From Amylostereum areolatum (Eukaryota > Basidiomycota > Agaricomycetes > Russulales > Stereaceae): a DNA stretch of 64,000 bases. Shown one piece after another: positions 4,049 through 64,000 of the stretch. The notes beneath the pieces were generated by a model, which saw only the letters and a program-made list of their open reading frames with translations, ran no database searches and was not told the origin of the DNA. Location of the stretch: the NCBI GenBank assembly GCA_012932865.1, contig SAXG01000081.1, forward strand, positions 119,485 through 183,484, read 5' to 3'. A program made the translations under genes and the position numbers. Numbering within the stretch: the stretch's first letter is position 1; the number at the start of each line of letters is the position of its first letter.

Positions 4049-4770
4049 ATGCCCCGAGGGCGCAAAAAAGACCTCACGACCCCACCCTCCCGCGCGCTCG
4101 CTCACCAACGCAACTACCGCGCCCGACGGGCCCAATACGTCGCCGATCTGGAAACGCGATGCCGGACCGCGGAGGAGGAGGTCGTGCGGCTGCGTGCGGA
4201 GCTCGCGCACGCAAGAGGCGAAACGGCTGGGGGCGACGAAGGTGGAAAAGAGGAGGAACGCGCGCGCGCGGAGCTGGTGAGTTTATGGTCGGACTGGGAT
4301 GCTGATTGAAGGCTCGAAGTGCTGATTGGGGTGTTTGTATGCGGGGGTTGGGTCGGGTGTGTATAGGATGTGATGTGTAGGGAACTGGTAAGACATCTGG
4401 CGACGACGACGGCGGCGGTGGAGCGCTTTCAGACGCGAGTGGGTGGCGGAGGACAGTCGCGGGCGAGGTAAGTTTCGTTTCTTTCGTCGGGTCGGGCATG
4501 CTCGTCGCTCGAGCATAATTAACGTACGGTAATCTCCACAGGGATGAAGCCCCGACCGCGTCTTCGCCGCCGCCTTCCACGTCCAACACGTCCAACCTCG
4601 ATCTCCTCGTCACCGCCATCCTCTCCACATCACCTCCTGCCGCGCGCAGTGATCCACGCGCACTCCAGGAAGACGCCTCGTCTGCCGCGGGTGAGGACGA
4701 GGAAATGGATCCGTCGGATGCACGCTGTTGTGGCGGGTTTTTGGATTGCAGGGATCTCGTCGTGGGTTGA
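4049..4770 (+). CDS. bZIP transcription factor with Cys-rich tail, copy 1
   Basis: Exons 4049-4276, 4367-4469, 4542-4770. The N-terminus holds a compact basic region (RNYRARRAQY, about residues 24-33) running directly into a heptad segment (LETRCRTAEEEVVRLRAELA), the standard layout of a DNA-binding bZIP. Exon 2 continues the helix (CRELVRHLATTTAAVERF). After an Ala/Ser/Pro/acidic linker, the C-terminus ends with DARCCGGFLDCRDL, a Cys cluster that is identical up to FLDCR in the second copy. It follows ACR3 on the same strand with about 270 bases between stop and start. The pairing resembles S. cerevisiae ARR1 (Yap8 bZIP) beside ARR3, so an arsenic-responsive regulator is a reasonable inference; the cysteines could sense As(III). 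Confidence 0.75.
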
Positions 4771-55037: not shown

Positions 55038-55618
55038 ATGGTGCGTGAGGAATTTGGGCTGTTCGTTCGCGCCGGAAGACGCGTAAAGACTGACACGTCG
55101 TACGGGTCGTAGGCTGCCCAGGCTACGTTCAAGTCCATCAAGTCTCTCGTCCCTCTCTTCGACCGCGTGCTCGTGCAACGCTTCAAGGCTGACACGGTGC
55201 GCCGTTTTATCCTGCTCTCGCGTCTGGGCTCGCCGTGCTGACGCCGCGCTCTGACCGCCTGCGCAGAAAACCGCGTCCGGCATCTTCTTGCCCACGTCTG
55301 CGACGAACAGCCCCCTCCCAGAGGCGACCGTCATTGCTGTCGGTCCCGGCGCGCCGAATAAAGAAGGCAAGATCCAGCCCATGTCGGTGGAGGCAGGAGA
55401 CAGGGTGTTGCTGCCCGGGTGGGGAGGGAACGCGATTAAGGTCGGGGAAGAGGTATGTGCTTTTCCTTCCTTTCCCTCTTCGTGCCCTTCGCCCTTCCTG
55501 TTCCACGCCTCTGCTTTCTCTTTGTTTTGTCATGGACGTGAGTGGCCGTTACTGACCGATATCACAGGAATACTTCCTGTTTAAGGACTCGGAGATTCTG
55601 GCCAAGATCAAAGAGTGA
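55038..55618 (+). CDS. HSP10: Mitochondrial co-chaperonin HSP10 (GroES)
   Basis: Exons 55038-55040 (ATG only), 55113-55196, 55267-55452, 55568-55618. The first exon holds just the start codon, and the intron follows it immediately (ATG|GTGCGT). The protein of about 107 residues reads MAAQATFKSIKSLVPLFDRV, then LVQRFKADTKTASGIFLPTSA (mobile loop), PEATVIAVGPGAPNKEGK, MSVEAGDRVLLPGWGGNAIKV and EYFLFKDSEILAKIKE. This is full length for GroES, with the usual basic/amphipathic N-terminal targeting stretch. It forms the heptameric lid of HSP60 in the mitochondrial matrix. Confidence 0.95.
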
Positions 55619-58028: not shown

Positions 58029-59150
58029 ACCGAACCAACCGCCCTCGACACTGTATTTGTTTAGGTGCGTTCGCTCATCTTCGCCCTTGCTTTTCTTCGG
58101 TGGCTGATCTTTACGACGCAGCTTCACGTCCGATCCCGTCACGACCGTTTGAGCCTGCCGCCGCCCCCACGATCTTCACCTACGCACGTACCTACCATAC
58201 CATCATTGCTTCCACGGTTCCCCGCGCCCTCGCCTGCATCTGTATCCACCAATCCATTGCATCCATTTGACTGAATTATTCGTACGCGTACTACTACCTA
58301 TGCTTCGTAGCCTTCTTCCCCGGGCGGTCTCCCCGCCCGTCCCTTCCTTTTTTGTGGACGTGGTGACTCCTACTGTACGTCTGCGTCATGATGTGACTCT
58401 TTACTTCCCCAAGCCCCAAGCCCGTCTACCACCCATCCAACTACGTACGTTCCCGCTTCAATGCCATTGTGTAATCGACGACATGTGTTCGGAGTGCACT
58501 CGATGCCTGCCTTATCGTCCCCGACTAACACTGTCCATCCTCCATAGCCCCCATCCCCGACCAAGCTCCGGCGGACAAGAACCCCGCGCCCACGGAGGTC
58601 TTTTACCCACACTCGAGCCTCGCGCACAAGGTGCAAACGCCGCGTTCGGTTTCGGAAGCGAGTTTGTGTCAAGTTGTCATAAGAGCAAGGGAGGGAGAGT
58701 AGAAGTACAGAGATCATACATCTGAGAGTTTGTCGCGAGATGGGTAAAAGAAGGGTGCCGATAATGTATCAAGCGTGCGGTATTAGACAGGCCCCCCCTA
58801 ATGCCAATAAAGGACCTATATTAGTCAAGTAAAAAGGTGGAAACACATGTCCCATAGGTCTACCAACCCGTTGGTAACATGTGTCCCATGGTGGGCCCAT
58901 GGGGGTATGGGCCCACTGCAGAGTGGTCGGATCCGAATGTTAGTTAGTGTATTAGGTTTCGGTATGTCAGTTGTGTCTGATTGTATGGTGTTTTGCACAC
59001 CCCCCCTTGGGGTTAGCCGGGGGTCGTGGTTAGCTTCAAGCAAACCTCCAGCGTTTGACGCAGTACCACGCCCTGAGGGCGAAAATAACGCGCACAGTTG
59101 CCCCTTGAACTGTGCGCGCGAAATCGCGTTTGTAGTCCACTACGAAGCGT
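58029..59150. other. Gene-free boundary between core and subtelomere
   Basis: No gene seen. Beyond about 58.8 kb the sequence loses the coding/intron texture seen to the left. Confidence 0.4.
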
Positions 59151-59315
59151 TGTACCGACTTTGTAACCGACCACCGAGCGTTGCACCGACTTTGTAACAA
59201 AGAAAGTGAACCGACTTGTACCGACTTTGTAGGGCACTACGCACGCGCGTTCGGTGCCGACTTTGTAGCACGCTACGAGGTGTTGTACCCACATTGTAGG
59301 GGCACTACAAAGTAT
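59145..59315 (+). repeat. Degenerate short repeats with ACCGACTTTGTA core
   Basis: The motif (A)CCGACTTTGTA recurs about five times in ~170 bp, at 59155, 59186, 59227, 59258 and in a variant near 59290 (ACCCACATTGTA). It is often followed by a CACTACG/GCACTACA-like block. The array lies just left of the first internal TTAGGG tract. Confidence 0.6.
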
Positions 59316-59344
59316 TTGACAAGCGGGCGAAGGGGGGCTAAGGG

Positions 59345-59356: not shown

Positions 59357-59682
59357 AGAGCGTGTGCGAAGCACACGCGATATATCTATGCTACGAGAGA
59401 GGACGTGCGCGGGATGAGTGCGGCTTGGGGGGCCAAGTCGTTACCTACACTTTCGCCTTTATAGGCTCTTCAGATCCCTTAGTAATGCGCATTACTAAAG
59501 CGACGCGGGTCGTACGACTTTTGCGTCGTTCCACTTTTGTCAATTGCTAAGCTTGATTTGTCATCGGAGACGCGACTCCGGGACAGTCCAGACCGTCGAC
59601 GTCATATGTTGCGTCATAATCGGCCTAAGAACACCGTGCCAAGACACCTAGACTCCGTCTCGGGCTATCTCTAAGCCGAAGG
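59357..59682 (-). repeat. Telomere-interleaved unit, copy 1 (R1)
   Basis: 326 bp, over 97% identical by eye to R2 and R3. On the minus strand it reads: right part, 20-bp palindrome TTAGTAATGCGCATTACTAA, hammerhead ribozyme, then a terminal hairpin (CGTGTGC-TTC-GCACACG) next to the CCCTAA tract. The left boundary is the same base in all copies. Confidence 0.9.
59411..59478 (-). ncRNA. Type-I hammerhead ribozyme, copy 1
   Basis: Minus strand, 68 nt. Stem I strand GGGAU (from 59478), core CUGAAGA, stem II GCCU-AUAA-AGGC, core GAAA, stem III GUGU-A-GG paired with CC-GCAC (A bulge, one U-G pair) enclosing an inner hairpin CUUGG-CCCC-CCAAG, then U and cleavage nucleotide C, then the second stem I strand AUCCC. 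All invariant hammerhead core positions are present. The predicted cut is after the C complementary to 59416. The strand matches that of the neighbouring Penelope-like RT. Confidence 0.85.
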
Positions 59683-59706
59683 TTAGGGTTAGGGTTAGGG
59701 TTAGGG
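59683..59706 (+). repeat. Internal telomeric tract (TTAGGG)4
   Basis: Exactly four TTAGGG copies between R1 and R2. Confidence 0.95.
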
Positions 59707-60031
59707 AGAGCGTGTGCGAAGCACACGCGATATATCTATGCTACGAGAGAGGGCGTGCGCGGGATAGTGCGGCTTGGGGGGTCAGGTCGTTACCTACACT
59801 TTCGCCTTTATAGGCTCTTCAGATCCCTTAGTAATGCGCATTACTAAAGCGACGCGGGTCGTACGACTTTTGCGTCGTTCCACTTTTGTCAATTGCTAAG
59901 CTTGATTTGTCGTCGGAGACGCGACTCCGGGGCAGTCCAGACCGTCGACGTCATATGTTGCGTCATAAGCGGCCTAAGAACACCGTGCCAAGACACCTAG
60001 ACTCCGTCTCGGGCTATCTCAAAGCCGAAGC
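59707..60031 (-). repeat. Telomere-interleaved unit, copy 2 (R2)
   Basis: 325 bp. It differs from R1/R3 by a few substitutions and one deleted base in the ribozyme cleavage site. Confidence 0.9.
59761..59827 (-). ncRNA. Hammerhead ribozyme, copy 2, cleavage-site mutant
   Basis: Same arrangement as copy 1, but the C before AUCCC is missing (plus strand GGGATAGTG in place of GGGATGAGTG), and the inner hairpin strand CUUGG is changed to CCUGA. The core CUGAAGA and GAAA and stems I and II are intact. Self-cleavage should be lost or greatly reduced. Confidence 0.75.
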
Positions 60032-60055
60032 TTAGGGTTAGGGTTAGGGTTAGGG
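60032..60055 (+). repeat. Internal telomeric tract (TTAGGG)4
   Basis: Exactly four TTAGGG copies between R2 and R3. Confidence 0.95.
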
Positions 60056-60609
60056 AGAGCGTGTGCGAAGCACACGCGATATATCTATGCTACGAGAGAG
60101 GGCGTGCGCGGGATGAGTGCGGCTTGGGGGGCCAAGTCGTTACCTACACTTTCGCCTTTATAGGCTCTTCAGATCCCTTAGTAATGCGCATTACTAAAGC
60201 GACGCGGGTCGTACGACTTTTGCGTCGTTCCACTTTTGTCAATTGCTAAGCTTGATTTGTCGTCGGAGACGCGACTCCGGGGCAGTCCAGACCGTCGACG
60301 TCATATGTTGCGTCATAAGCGGCCTAAGAACACCGTGCCAAGACACCTAGACTCCGTCTCGGGCTATCTCAAAGCCGAAGCCGAGATGCCGAGCTGCCGA
60401 GCGTCTAGACGGGCCGAAGCCAGCGCCAATACTCGGACCGGAACCCGAACCGGATCAAGTCGGGGCGGAGCCGCCGAAATGAGCGCCCGGGATTAGCCGG
60501 GCGCTAAGAACCCGTGACCGGACCATGCCGGGCCGGAGGGCGCTTAACTCGGATAATGCCGACCTAGGCGAGGAACGAGCCTAGGTCGGGTTAGTTATCA
60601 TCCTACCGG
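60056..60609 (-). repeat. Telomere-interleaved unit, copy 3 (R3), longer form
   Basis: The first 326 bp (to 60381) match R1 and R2; the unit then continues another ~228 bp to the next TTAGGG tract. The extension holds two strong hairpins: AGCGCCCGG/CCGGGCGCT (60482-60505) and CCGACCTAGGC/GCCTAGGTCGG (60559-60589). R1 and R2 look like copies truncated at one side of this longer form. Confidence 0.8.
60110..60177 (-). ncRNA. Type-I hammerhead ribozyme, copy 3
   Basis: Identical in all 68 nt to copy 1. The predicted cleavage lies between the bases complementary to 60115 (C17) and 60114. The 3' product would be 59 nt up to the unit boundary at 60056, ending in the terminal hairpin before the CCCUAA tract. 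Confidence 0.85.
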
Positions 60610-60640
60610 TTAGGGTTAGGGTTAGGGGTTAGGGTTAGGC
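60610..60640 (+). repeat. Internal telomeric tract with one TTAGGGG variant
   Basis: Five TTAGGG-type repeats, one carrying an extra G. Confidence 0.9.
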
Positions 60641-60692
60641 TAAGATGGATGTTCTTTAGCAATTTTACATGCCGACTAAGGCATAGTACGTA

Positions 60693-60719
60693 CGTTAGGG
60701 TTCGGGTTAGGGTTAGGGC
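60693..60719 (+). repeat. Internal telomeric tract
   Basis: Four repeats of which one reads TTCGGG. It marks the left (3') border of the Penelope-like element. Confidence 0.85.
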
Positions 60720-63700
60720 AAGGTGGGAGTCCCTATCTAATTCGGTTAATACCGTCCGTCGCCTTTCGACTAACGATGTACCTACAAGAGTAGATTAATA
60801 GTTAAAGCCTCGAGACAGCTTTAAACTCCTATCTCAGGGATAGACAGCAAGACCACGTCCGCATAGTGTCCCGGGCGTTAACGTCGGGAGCGGACATGAC
60901 CCATGATCGGGGGACAAATACAGGCCTCCGGTGTAAGCACCTTAGGCCGAAGAGGGTACCCCGCCTTCCGCCGAAGCAATGCGCAGGCGTCCGAGCGGAG
61001 TTTCCAACCGCCGTACATGTTCCCAAATGTCCATAGCTGATCCGAAGACCTGCTAATGACCCTTCACAGAGGAGCCGCGTCATCACCGGTCCCGCCGGGG
61101 ACGCAAACGCGGCCAGGTCGTTAGACCACCAAGCGCACTGCGCCACCATTCTCGAAGGACCCCTGAAAGGACGCCGAGTTAGGGTGCGGCTTACGCGCGG
61201 CTTAAGATGGAATCAACCCAGATGCTGTCTACCAGGCGCCGGAGCGCCATGCTCGGGAGACAGGCGACGACGAGCGTCGGTGGATATTCGTTTCTTCTTC
61301 TTCATAGTCCACCTCGGCGTTACCAGCCGGATAGGAAGTCGAAACGGCAGAGCCGCCGACGAGAGATGTTGTACGGGTTGCGACAGGAGTGTCGTCGAAA
61401 GGGGCTGATACCTCCTCCCCCATACGCTCGTCGAGCTTTTCGATCACGATCTTTTTCCAAAGACTTGTTAAGTCGAAAAGATTACGAGTGCGCTTGCGGC
61501 TCGTAATCAATCGACGGTCAAGGATATCTAATTTACGGATATCCGGGAGGTAGATCCTCGAGCCGTCATTACGGGTACCGACAGGGACCAAAAGATCCGC
61601 TTTAGTGCCCGCTAGGCTAGAGAGTTCGCCGTCCGGAGCCGGGAATTCAGGAAAACTGTATTCGGCGCGATCGGTACGTGTCATGTACTCGCGCCAGTAT
61701 CCTAAGATCGTGTCGCCTAATTTCGAGGCGTCGAAATAGTTCCATGCTGAGTTGAACTCGGTTTTCAGAACGAGAACGTTGTCGTGCTTATTGACAGTAA
61801 CGTTTAGTCGTTTATCCCACCGTTCTCGGTGATTTTTCATCCGCCAAGATTCAACCAGTCTTCTCGGGTAGCCGCGTTTCACGTAGAGGGTTACTAAGTC
61901 CTCTAGTGCGGTATAGTAAGTACTAGGGGTACTACTCAACGTCGCTAGCCGGGACATCTCTCCAATAAAAGTACCACGCTTTACATCAAGCGGGTGGAAG
62001 GATATCCAAGGAATTCTTTCGGTGTGGTTCCGCGCTTTGCGGTACGGCATGTGCTGAAGGGTTCCAACCTCATCGCAATAGATTGCCATGTCTAAAAACG
62101 GCTGCCAAGAGGCAGACGCGGACCACTCTAAAACACAGTCATCGAATTTAACTTTTTCGCTCATATAGCGTACGGCGTCAGTCTCACTTTCGGCGTACAC
62201 GATGGCGAAGACATCGTCGATATAGCGACCATAGAACGGGACGTTCGGGTCGTCAAGGATTTTAACTTTACGCTCGAACTCCCACCCGTACAGGTTAGCG
62301 AGATCGGGCGAGTCGGCGACGCCCATTGCGAGGCCGATCTTCTGAAGGTAAAATTTATCTTGAAACTGTGTTACAAGCTCGGTGTTGCCGACGTCTAAGA
62401 GTCGTCGGAAGATACTTTGCAACATGCGCGCGCGAGGCGTATCATATTCGGGGTCGTTTTCCCAGTAGAACTCAAGGTAATGCGAATAAATAATATCAAG
62501 GCATTTCTTGATGGGAATCGATGGGTAATACGCGACGACGTCGGCGGTGATGATGAACCACTTTCGATCGCGACGCAATTCGAGCTTACTTAATTTTATC
62601 GCCAAGTCTTTAGTACCATGAATAATGGTTGGCGCCGCTTGTACGAGCGGTTTAAGTTTTTTAGAAACGTACTTTGCAGCGGGATTCATAACGGCGCTGT
62701 GGCATGGGATTATGGGCCTCATTTTAACCGGTTCTTTATGTATCTTAGGGATACCATAGAACTGGGGGACCTTGTGATTTGCGCCGGCGGGCGTAATTTT
62801 TGACCGCAAAAACTCGTCGACGGTACCTTCTTCCCAGAGATAATCGGTCGCCAACTCAGCGAGCGCGTCCATCTCAATACATTTCTTATCTAATATACGC
62901 GTGGCCTCTACCACAGACAACGGTTTATAGTTGTTAACATCTTTTAAGATGTCCGTACATTTTTCAACGATCCAGGCCCGTTGTGACACCGCGAGTCCTA
63001 AGTTTTTGTCGGTAGCAGTGACTACATAATCATTATCGACAAGGAACTCTTTTAGTCGGCGGGGAGCAGGAGCCAACGGCTTAAAAGTGCTCATCTCCAT
63101 CTCCGGCGGGACTTTGGCTATCGTATTCATCACGAAGAGCCGTCCTCTGCGGAGGCCGAGTTCTAAATAAAGCGGTAACTTCGGCGGCGTCTTTTTAGAG
63201 GGTTTGCGCACGTCGAAGTCAGGATCGTAAGGGGTATCATCCCCGTTCTCAAAGCTAAAAAACAGGCGCCATCGGAGGCGACGCTGAAAGTCGACCCAGG
63301 CATCCCAGATCAATTCGCTTTTCCGTGGTTGAAAATACATGTACCTCATGCCCACGGAGAGTTGGTGACTTATTTCTTTAGGCAAGTTCACCCCGGGCGA
63401 TGTGTGGATATCGTTTTTATAGGACTCGGCCAATAGTATTTCAATCGGCGTATACAAACGAATATAATTCATAGCGAGGGGGAACGGGACGTCTAAGATC
63501 GCGTCCGGGAGAGTGTCCGGTCTACCATACACATACGAGCGCATAAGGCGAGCTACTTCTTCGCCGGCTTCTTCCCTTTGCCCTTTACGCCGCCCTCCGA
63601 AGAGTTCTTCTTCTTCTTTTTGCCGTCGCCCTTCTTGCCTGGCCAGAGGTAAGGAAGTTTTCGCGACGGAGGGGGGACGTACGGACCTTTCGGCGCTCCG

Positions 63701-63892
63701 TCTCCCTTGGCGGCTTTGGAGGTTGACGAAGTTGTCTTCTTCGTCTTCGGGGTCTGCGGGGACTACAAAATCATAGTCAGCGTGGGACGATGAAGCGCGA
63801 TCCGCCGTTACTCGGCGCGCACGAACCTTCCCTTTGCCCTTCTGCTGCTTCTTCAGCTCGGCGGCGACGCCCTTAGAGATAAGATCCGCGAG
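60720..63892 (-). mobile_element. Telomere-attached Penelope-like retroelement (Coprina/Athena type)
   Basis: Bounded on the left by an internal TTAGGG tract and on the right by the terminal telomere. It contains one RT ORF on the C-rich strand and about 500 bases of 3' non-coding sequence. The orientation (5' end towards the telomere) is that expected if the G-rich 3' overhang primes reverse transcription of the element RNA. No GIY-YIG endonuclease domain is visible, as in endonuclease-deficient Athena and Coprina elements, which are known to sit at telomeres. Confidence 0.85.
61229..63892 (-). CDS. Penelope-like reverse transcriptase, 5'-truncated by the telomere
   Basis: Counting from the internal Met at 63544, 771 residues: KIHK (267-270) with MRPIIPC after it, motif A ITADVVAYYPSIP (Asp334), motif B GLAMGVADSPDLANLYG (404-420), motif C YIDD (441-444) and a motif D/E region with WQPFLDMAIYCD. 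The KIHK motif and the spacing are those of Penelope-like RTs, which are related to telomerase. No GIY-YIG segment follows. The frame is open upstream of that Met for another 116 codons to 63892, encoding charged sequence (KGVAAELKKQQKGKGKVRARR and acidic PADPEDEED), and then runs into the telomeric repeats as Pro-Asn dipeptides with no start codon. The true N-terminus is therefore missing. The C-terminus ends with a Ser/Arg-rich tail. Confidence 0.9.
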   Translation of the reverse strand, partial: LADLISKGVAAELKKQQKGKGKVRARRVTADRASSSHADYDFVVPADPEDEEDNFVNLQSRQGRRSAERSVRPPSVAKTSLPLARQEGRRQKEEEELFGGRRKGQREEAGEEVARLMRSYVYGRPDTLPDAILDVPFPLAMNYIRLYTPIEILLAESYKNDIHTSPGVNLPKEISHQLSVGMRYMYFQPRKSELIWDAWVDFQRRLRWRLFFSFENGDDTPYDPDFDVRKPSKKTPPKLPLYLELGLRRGRLFVMNTIAKVPPEMEMSTFKPLAPAPRRLKEFLVDNDYVVTATDKNLGLAVSQRAWIVEKCTDILKDVNNYKPLSVVEATRILDKKCIEMDALAELATDYLWEEGTVDEFLRSKITPAGANHKVPQFYGIPKIHKEPVKMRPIIPCHSAVMNPAAKYVSKKLKPLVQAAPTIIHGTKDLAIKLSKLELRRDRKWFIITADVVAYYPSIPIKKCLDIIYSHYLEFYWENDPEYDTPRARMLQSIFRRLLDVGNTELVTQFQDKFYLQKIGLAMGVADSPDLANLYGWEFERKVKILDDPNVPFYGRYIDDVFAIVYAESETDAVRYMSEKVKFDDCVLEWSASASWQPFLDMAIYCDEVGTLQHMPYRKARNHTERIPWISFHPLDVKRGTFIGEMSRLATLSSTPSTYYTALEDLVTLYVKRGYPRRLVESWRMKNHRERWDKRLNVTVNKHDNVLVLKTEFNSAWNYFDASKLGDTILGYWREYMTRTDRAEYSFPEFPAPDGELSSLAGTKADLLVPVGTRNDGSRIYLPDIRKLDILDRRLITSRKRTRNLFDLTSLWKKIVIEKLDERMGEEVSAPFDDTPVATRTTSLVGGSAVSTSYPAGNAEVDYEEEETNIHRRSSSPVSRAWRSGAW

Positions 63893-64000
63893 GTTAGGGT
63901 TAGGGTTAGGGTTAGGGTTAGGGTTAGGGTTAGGGTTAGGGTTAGGGTTAGGGTTAGGGTTAGGGTTAGGGTTAGGGTTAGGGTTAGGGTTAGGGTTAGG
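63893..64000 (+). repeat. Terminal telomere (TTAGGG)n
   Basis: About 18 perfect TTAGGG repeats to the window end, G-rich strand reading outward. This is the chromosome's right end. Confidence 0.98.

Follow-up and report, generated by a model that had tools for sequence, protein, structure and literature searches.

A predicted hammerhead ribozyme in the terminal 326 nucleotides of a telomere-attached retroelement of Amylostereum areolatum

Introduction

The reverse transcriptase (RT) elements HeT-A and TART of Drosophila are added to chromosome ends with their 3' ends facing inward, and their promoter lies in the upstream neighbor. In fungi, telomere-attached Penelope-like elements of the Coprina type, which are endonuclease deficient, were reportedly described by Gladyshev and Arkhipova in 2007, and Cervera and de la Pena are said to have found hammerhead ribozymes in fungal and protist Penelope-like elements in 2014, with variants that are stable as monomers. 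The endonuclease-deficient Penelope-like elements of bdelloid rotifers also go by the name Athena. The Terminons of bdelloid rotifers are described as having a hammerhead that abuts reverse-complement telomeric repeats on their upstream side (PMC6431247). According to a review, hammerheads are present in every Penelope-like element sequence available, mostly in a minimal form that lacks helix III (PMC6155905), while the role of the hammerhead in these elements is described as unknown elsewhere (PMC7761336). In Agaricus bisporus, Penelope-like elements were located at chromosome ends, in a genome paper whose accessible part lacks the word hammerhead (PMC7473861). Among the titles listed by our literature searches, none dealt with hammerheads in Penelope-like elements of fungal telomeres, which is not a claim of absence from print.

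Here, we analyzed a 64,000-nucleotide stretch of the Amylostereum areolatum assembly (GCA_012932865.1, contig SAXG01000081.1), referred to as the window; contigs are denoted by C and a number. The element at its right end matches the endonuclease-deficient telomeric Penelope-like elements in its predicted telomerase-like RT (at low TM-scores), in the lack of a visible endonuclease, in its telomeric position with the 3' end inward, and in 5' truncation capped by telomeric repeats. It resembles the Coprina type in being fungal, endonuclease deficient, and telomere attached, a likeness by description. Fungal and protist Penelope-like elements reportedly share with it a type I hammerhead with a stable stem III, again a likeness by description only. 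HeT-A and TART belong to a different RT class and are not known to carry a hammerhead, whereas the present element retains telomerase-type repeats.

With the Terminons as described (PMC6431247), the element shares the telomeric position, an RT without endonuclease, a 3'-end hammerhead followed by reverse-complement telomeric repeats, telomere-capped 5' truncation, and head-to-tail arrays. The novelty that the initial annotation had seen in hammerheads at telomeric tracts thus fails in part: a hammerhead beside telomere-complement repeats is already published for Terminons, and the pairing of a hammerhead with a telomere-attached Penelope-like element is known. Unlike the Terminons, however, the present element has TTAGGG repeats, a long stem III, and two internal telomeric tracts in its 3' UTR, and its cleavage site is separated from the tail by 59 nt that include a hairpin, while the repeats of Terminons are described as lying "immediately downstream." The long stem III, the 59-nt spacer with its hairpin, and the internal tracts are its own features. 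It is ∼4.7 kb long with one open reading frame (ORF), compared with up to 40 kb and accessory ORFs in Terminons. Short type I hammerhead repeats in tandem are also found in retrozymes (PMC7761336 and PMC7229834), but those are nonautonomous, with no RT in the mobile unit, whereas here the unit is part of an RT element in all 17 3'-UTR copies found and its copies are spaced by telomeric repeats.

Results

The right end of the window, closed by a terminal TTAGGG array (63892 to 64000), is likely a chromosome end. The RT reading frame lies on the minus strand (61229 to 63891); it is 5' truncated by the terminal telomere and open right into the array. Further features follow inward on the same strand: the 3' UTR proper (60720 to 61228, of which 60720 to 61199 served as the query for the genome search), a degenerate internal telomeric tract placed by segment mapping (tract 1, 60695 to 60719), a conserved 54-nt segment (60641 to 60694) that separates it from a second tract (tract 2, 60608 to 60639, element positions 4113 to 4144), and a 226-nt 3' UTR segment, U5 (60382 to 60607), which abuts the 326-nt unit U3 on its upstream side. 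This U3 copy, R3 (60056 to 60381), is followed by a telomeric spacer (60032 to 60055), a U3-only copy, R2 (59707 to 60031), a second spacer (59682 to 59706), and another U3-only copy, R1 (59357 to 59681). R2 and R1 begin after CCCTAA at U3 positions 1 and 2, respectively, and the three copies, of 325 to 326 nt each, are 98 to 100% identical.

To place these segments, we mapped them onto contig pieces and obtained a fixed order of RT, 3' UTR, tract 1, 54-nt segment, tract 2, U5, U3, and CCCTAA. All 17 copies of the 3' UTR have U5 110 to 115 nt downstream and then U3 directly; tract 1 was detected in 15 of them and is too degenerate for the search pattern in two C159 copies. Seen from the other side, 29 of the 33 U3 copies have U5 directly upstream (28 whole or nearly so, one with its last 32 nt). 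The 326-nt unit is the last 326 nt of the neighboring RT element and not a separate parasite. Given this constant order, the RT element of the window terminates on its 3' side in R3, and tracts 1 and 2 fall within its 3' UTR. The initial annotation had proposed a nonautonomous unit that is bounded by TTAGGG and parasitizes the RT next door. The parasite is contradicted by the junction of U3 with the RT element's 3' UTR in all 17 copies, and the boundary applies to R1 and R2, which have TTAGGG on both sides, but not to R3, which continues into U5 and past two tracts into the 3' UTR. The link that it drew between the hammerhead and the RT on the same strand is borne out, U3 being the 3' terminus of the RT element.

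Four U3 copies lack U5, namely R1, R2, C153:83705, and C154:2287. The C154 copy is truncated inside U3 and C153:83705 runs straight into a full-length RT element, which leaves R1 and R2; these are short copies of the RT element's 3' end. Two copies of the element (on C153 and C159) have a 5' end, and both read U3-CCCTAACC-5' UTR-ORF. In the C159 copy the tract at this joint is CCCTACC and the U3 hammerhead is broken by indels, while the full-length C153 copy has intact hammerheads on both sides (pieces L032, 5910 to 5977, and L022, 1145 to 1212). R1, R2, and the 5' U3 of C153 all begin at U3 position 1 or 2, and the substitution T247C occurs in R2 and the C153 leader U3 alone among the 18 copies of subfamily A (one C159 copy lacks that base). 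The start positions and T247C fit R2 as a leader copy begun at the inner CCCUAACC.

On the minus strand of R1 and R3, all elements of a type I hammerhead occur in order, as first annotated: GGGAU, CUGAAGA, GCCU/AGGC, GAAA, stem III with an inner hairpin, UC, and AUCCC. The core comprises CUGANGA, GAAA, UH, and stems I to III, of which II and III are closed. When both strands of the whole window were scanned with a strict pattern, it matched only R1 (59411 to 59478, predicted cleavage at 59416/59415) and R3 (60110 to 60177, predicted cleavage at 60115/60114), whose hammerheads are identical; it had no match in 100 first-order Markov sequences of 64 kb each. That R2 had not been named is consistent with its sequence: its hammerhead (59761 to 59827) lacks the cleavage-site nucleotide C17 and is predicted to be inactive. 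A 20-nt perfect palindrome (60178 to 60197), a hairpin, abuts stem I on the 5' side. From the predicted cleavage site to the last base of the unit, where the telomeric tract begins, the distance is 59 nt, as had been stated. An 8-bp hairpin (60059 to 60077) lies 3 nt upstream of the CCCTAA tail, which is unpaired in the predicted fold.

The MFE structure of the excised 68 nt of R1 and R3 is exactly the hammerhead three-way junction, and the same junction was obtained for a 67-nt sequence of subfamily B. With flanks (100 nt), the lowest-energy fold of the window-type sequence is not the hammerhead, and at 165 nt the free fold reaches −42.7 kcal/mol versus −40.8 kcal/mol with the hammerhead enforced; subfamily B at 102 nt retains the hammerhead fold with its flanks. 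The covariance search with Rfam models that the initial annotation had suggested did not bear it out. Its best result was a subthreshold match to the type III model (RF00008; 21.6 bits versus a gathering score of 48.5; E value 0.85 over 10 kb and 0.0086 over 101 bases) in a register that differs from the type I fold, and the Rfam type I model gave no match in searches of the 10 kb and the 101 bases. No curated model thus recognizes it at the gathering score, and the case for a hammerhead predicted to cleave itself 59 nt before the CCCTAA tail rests on the motif, on how the excised sequence folds, and on paired changes. Our own covariance model, trained on these same sequences, scored the R3 hammerhead at 93.6 bits. 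We also considered and rejected a second hammerhead elsewhere in the element; in 18 sources, the matches of this model were confined to U3 copies (34 rows, one copy being entered twice).

The assembly holds at least 33 U3 copies; the genome search scores best candidates only, so that all copy counts given here are lower bounds. They fall into two subfamilies, A (n = 18, the window type) and B (n = 15, including the diverged copies on C147 and C119), which are ∼91% identical. Among 13 distinct hammerheads, 93.9% of the structure cells pair, compared with at most 46% in slid-partner controls. Stem III pair 33-59 is U-G in four of the 13 (A), A-U in eight (B), and unpaired in one, pair 31-61 reads U-A in A but U-G in B, and three pairs of the inner hairpin differ on both sides between A and B, depending on the alignment. 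Paired changes of the kind called for in the initial annotation are thus present in stem III, while stems I and II, like the core, hardly vary among copies and so are silent on this point. Two of five shuffle measures do not exceed chance: 334 of 500 shuffles had as many pairs with changes on both sides as observed, and 495 of 500 had as many further pair types. The pairing structure was derived from the same sequences, and the A/B split counts as one event per pair. Where the cleavage-site nucleotide is deleted, as in two copies, aligner placement makes stem I pairs look broken. None of the 31 differences between A and B falls on the 35 fixed ribozyme bases, a result that 44 of 326 circular shifts equal and that is not significant alone. 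The 26-nt core segment occurs exactly in 26 places, and two further sites match it with no more than three mismatches. Tandem element arrays with dense one-base indels occupy C159:1-12148 and C1:1-8845, reflecting either decay or a poor consensus.

The copy on C153 has an intact, untruncated frame of 1,153 amino acids, while the window copy is cut by the telomere at element position 859. Pfam models gave no match to the 1,153-amino-acid protein at E values up to 10, hence no GIY-YIG endonuclease was seen, and RVT_1 was missed in this query as well; the window protein likewise has no RT match in Pfam. RVT_1 was matched in 12 of 30 aligned proteins. In a PDB fold search with the predicted structure (pLDDT 76.8), telomerase chains were the best four matches and seven of the best eight, at weak TM-scores of 0.22 to 0.36 by query length for these eight, so that the RT is predicted to be telomerase-like. 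A PDB sequence search with a profile gave no match, and NCBIfam models of bacterial defense and retron RTs matched far below their cutoffs. Among the 120 homologues listed of 408, the only Pfam domains are PF00078, PF26215, and PF28514, and no name is informative. We found no relatives in viral contigs, and bacterial and archaeal genomes yielded just three distant RTs, with 25 to 43% identity over short stretches.

A search for arrays of at least eight perfect TTAGGG repeats in 57 Mb found nine, on C12, C22, C33, C34, C112, C113, C121, C154, and C163. All nine adjoin the element; six are at contig ends, and the element lies beneath each of these six. Every telomeric array that we found thus caps such an element. 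The RT points to the centromere, and the 3' end, with its CCCTAA, faces inward. At least one CCCTAA-type repeat follows U3 in 31 of 33 copies; the exceptions are a copy on C107, which has CCCCGACC, and C159:3792, which has CCCTACC and then the 5' UTR of the next element. No copy among those found ends or starts at the cleavage site, and all 33 U3 copies retain the sequence beyond it. These near-uniform 3' ends indicate that the RNA still had the 59 nt downstream of the cleavage site when it was copied. Some copies, several in number, are internal to contigs. The subfamily B copy at C107:393335-396757 has no telomeric repeat on either side and may, read from these missing repeats, be an insertion or a relic away from the telomere. 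At C153:78369-83700, head-to-head element pieces and an N run precede an inverted TTAGGG stretch, which is probably a case of two chromosome ends joined by scaffolding.

We placed the 5' ends of 31 copies by reading; two are full length and 29 are truncated or interrupted, with 5' truncations capped by telomeric repeats. In eight of the 29 truncated copies (two on C153 and one each on C34, C33, C12, C121, C159, and C22) the 5' end falls inside tract 2, and these eight have eight different 3' junctions. A binomial estimate for this clustering gives 2e-11, which rises to 3e-6 when truncations are restricted to the final kilobase, on the premise that copies are independent, which they may not be. 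One of the two C153 copies lies beside the scaffold gap in the head-to-head arrangement, and on C34 and C22 the contig now ends at tract 2. Tract 2 is possibly a built-in telomere seed, which would offer a mobile element and telomerase a route to share capping.

With the eight of 33 copies on C159, C1, C147, and C119 set aside for their dense indels, the remaining 25 carry four private internal one-base deletions, a count that excludes a deletion at R1's first base and a position-137 deletion common to four B copies. In two of the four, those of R2 (A) and C34:1374-1699 (B), the missing base is precisely the one 5' of the cleavage site; genome-wide, this deletion is present at two sites and the intact motif at 29. 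The chance estimate for two such losses is 6e-5, made after the fact and with one of the four deletions readable as a substitution. We considered gene conversion, for which the tract between diagnostic sites would, by eye, be shorter than ∼17 nt, and read error, at a site that is not a homopolymer.

Discussion

Our preferred reading, to which we give a probability of roughly 0.7, is that a hammerhead predicted to cleave itself sits in the terminal 326 nt of a telomere-attached retroelement with a predicted telomerase-like RT, and that this element lives as follows. RNA that ends in, or runs through, U3-CCCUAA would be carried by the RT to a chromosome end, where CCCUAA would anneal to the TTAGGG overhang. 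The RT would then extend the chromosome end, copying the element toward its 5' end, and telomerase would cap the unfinished end. Because the 5' UTR is immediately preceded by U3 in both copies that retain a 5' end, self-cleavage would trim a leader from transcripts started in U3 or in the upstream neighbor, and the trimmed RNA would begin at AUCCCGCGCA. A promoter in the upstream neighbor, as in HeT-A and TART, would be one route to such a U3 leader. Since the template must keep its last 59 nt, the 3' copy would have to escape lasting cleavage, through delay, suppression, or reversal of the cut. R1 and R2 may derive from copying that began at the CCCUAACC between a leader U3 and the 5' UTR; a Penelope-like RT, that of an anole element, is reported to start internally (PMC11167929). 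Candidate reasons for keeping a ribozyme though the copied RNA stays whole are leader trimming, a fold that opens the tail, and circles made by cutting and rejoining. The role of the hammerhead is directly testable in this element, which offers 33 copies from two subfamilies, an ORF that is intact, 3' ends that are nearly uniform, and two copies without C17.

The alternative that fares best, which we hold to be improbable yet worth serious attention, is that the fold matters and not the cleavage: hammerhead and tail hairpin would hold the RT and leave CCCUAA single stranded for annealing. The retention of sequence beyond the cleavage site in 33 of 33 copies speaks for it, as does the predicted fold, with its unpaired tail and the 8-bp hairpin 3 nt off. 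The same proposal is published for Terminons (PMC6431247), and hammerhead mutants of an anole Penelope element, whose cleavage required its protein, were unaffected in insertion in vitro (PMC11167929). A scaffold, however, would not need a 26-nt core kept exactly in 26 places, and the loss of exactly the cleavage nucleotide in two copies also points away from a purely structural role.

Those same two losses enter a more speculative extension, which we regard as doubtful: tract 2 would ready a telomere end for unfinished or eroded copies, and both C17 deletions would stem from RNA that the hammerhead had cut and that was then sealed and reverse transcribed, perhaps from a circular template. Circles could also be the template altogether, in that RNA running from U3 to U3 would be cut at both hammerheads, closed by a host ligase, and copied from an internal CCCUAACC, which would yield head-to-tail arrays with one U3 in common. 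The intact hammerheads that flank the full-length C153 copy are consistent with this, as are the U3-CCCTAACC-5' UTR joint, with one indel, in two of two copies and the loss of the cleavage nucleotide once per subfamily, as expected from a misread joined scar; retrozymes use such circles (PMC7761336). We nevertheless find this model unlikely, since the variable telomeric spacers and scattered 5' truncations let separate linear insertions explain most arrays, and the shared U3 on C159 has a hammerhead broken by indels.

A nonautonomous self-cleaving unit that uses its neighbor's RT, as first proposed, appears very improbable to us. R1, R2, and one C153 U3 do begin at U3 position 1 or 2 without U5, with T247C uniting R2 and that C153 copy among the 18 of subfamily A, but U3 is the RT element's end in all 17 3'-UTR copies, 29 of 33 U3 copies have U5 upstream, and truncation or an RT junction leaves only R1 and R2 to be explained. 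A functionless relic or chance fold, to which the eight of 33 copies on indel-rich contigs or in indel-rich copies (C1, C119, C147, and C159), several of them with indels within the hammerhead, might point, is hardly credible given 0 matches in 100 random windows, 26 exact core segments, paired changes in stem III, and an intact 1,153-amino-acid ORF.

Farther from the end, two minor features of the window were seen by eye. Next to the innermost telomeric tract, on its inner side, 59140 to 59320 holds short and degenerate repeats centered on "ccgactttgta," and a spliced gene at 55038 to 55617 resembles a GroES/Hsp10 cochaperonin.
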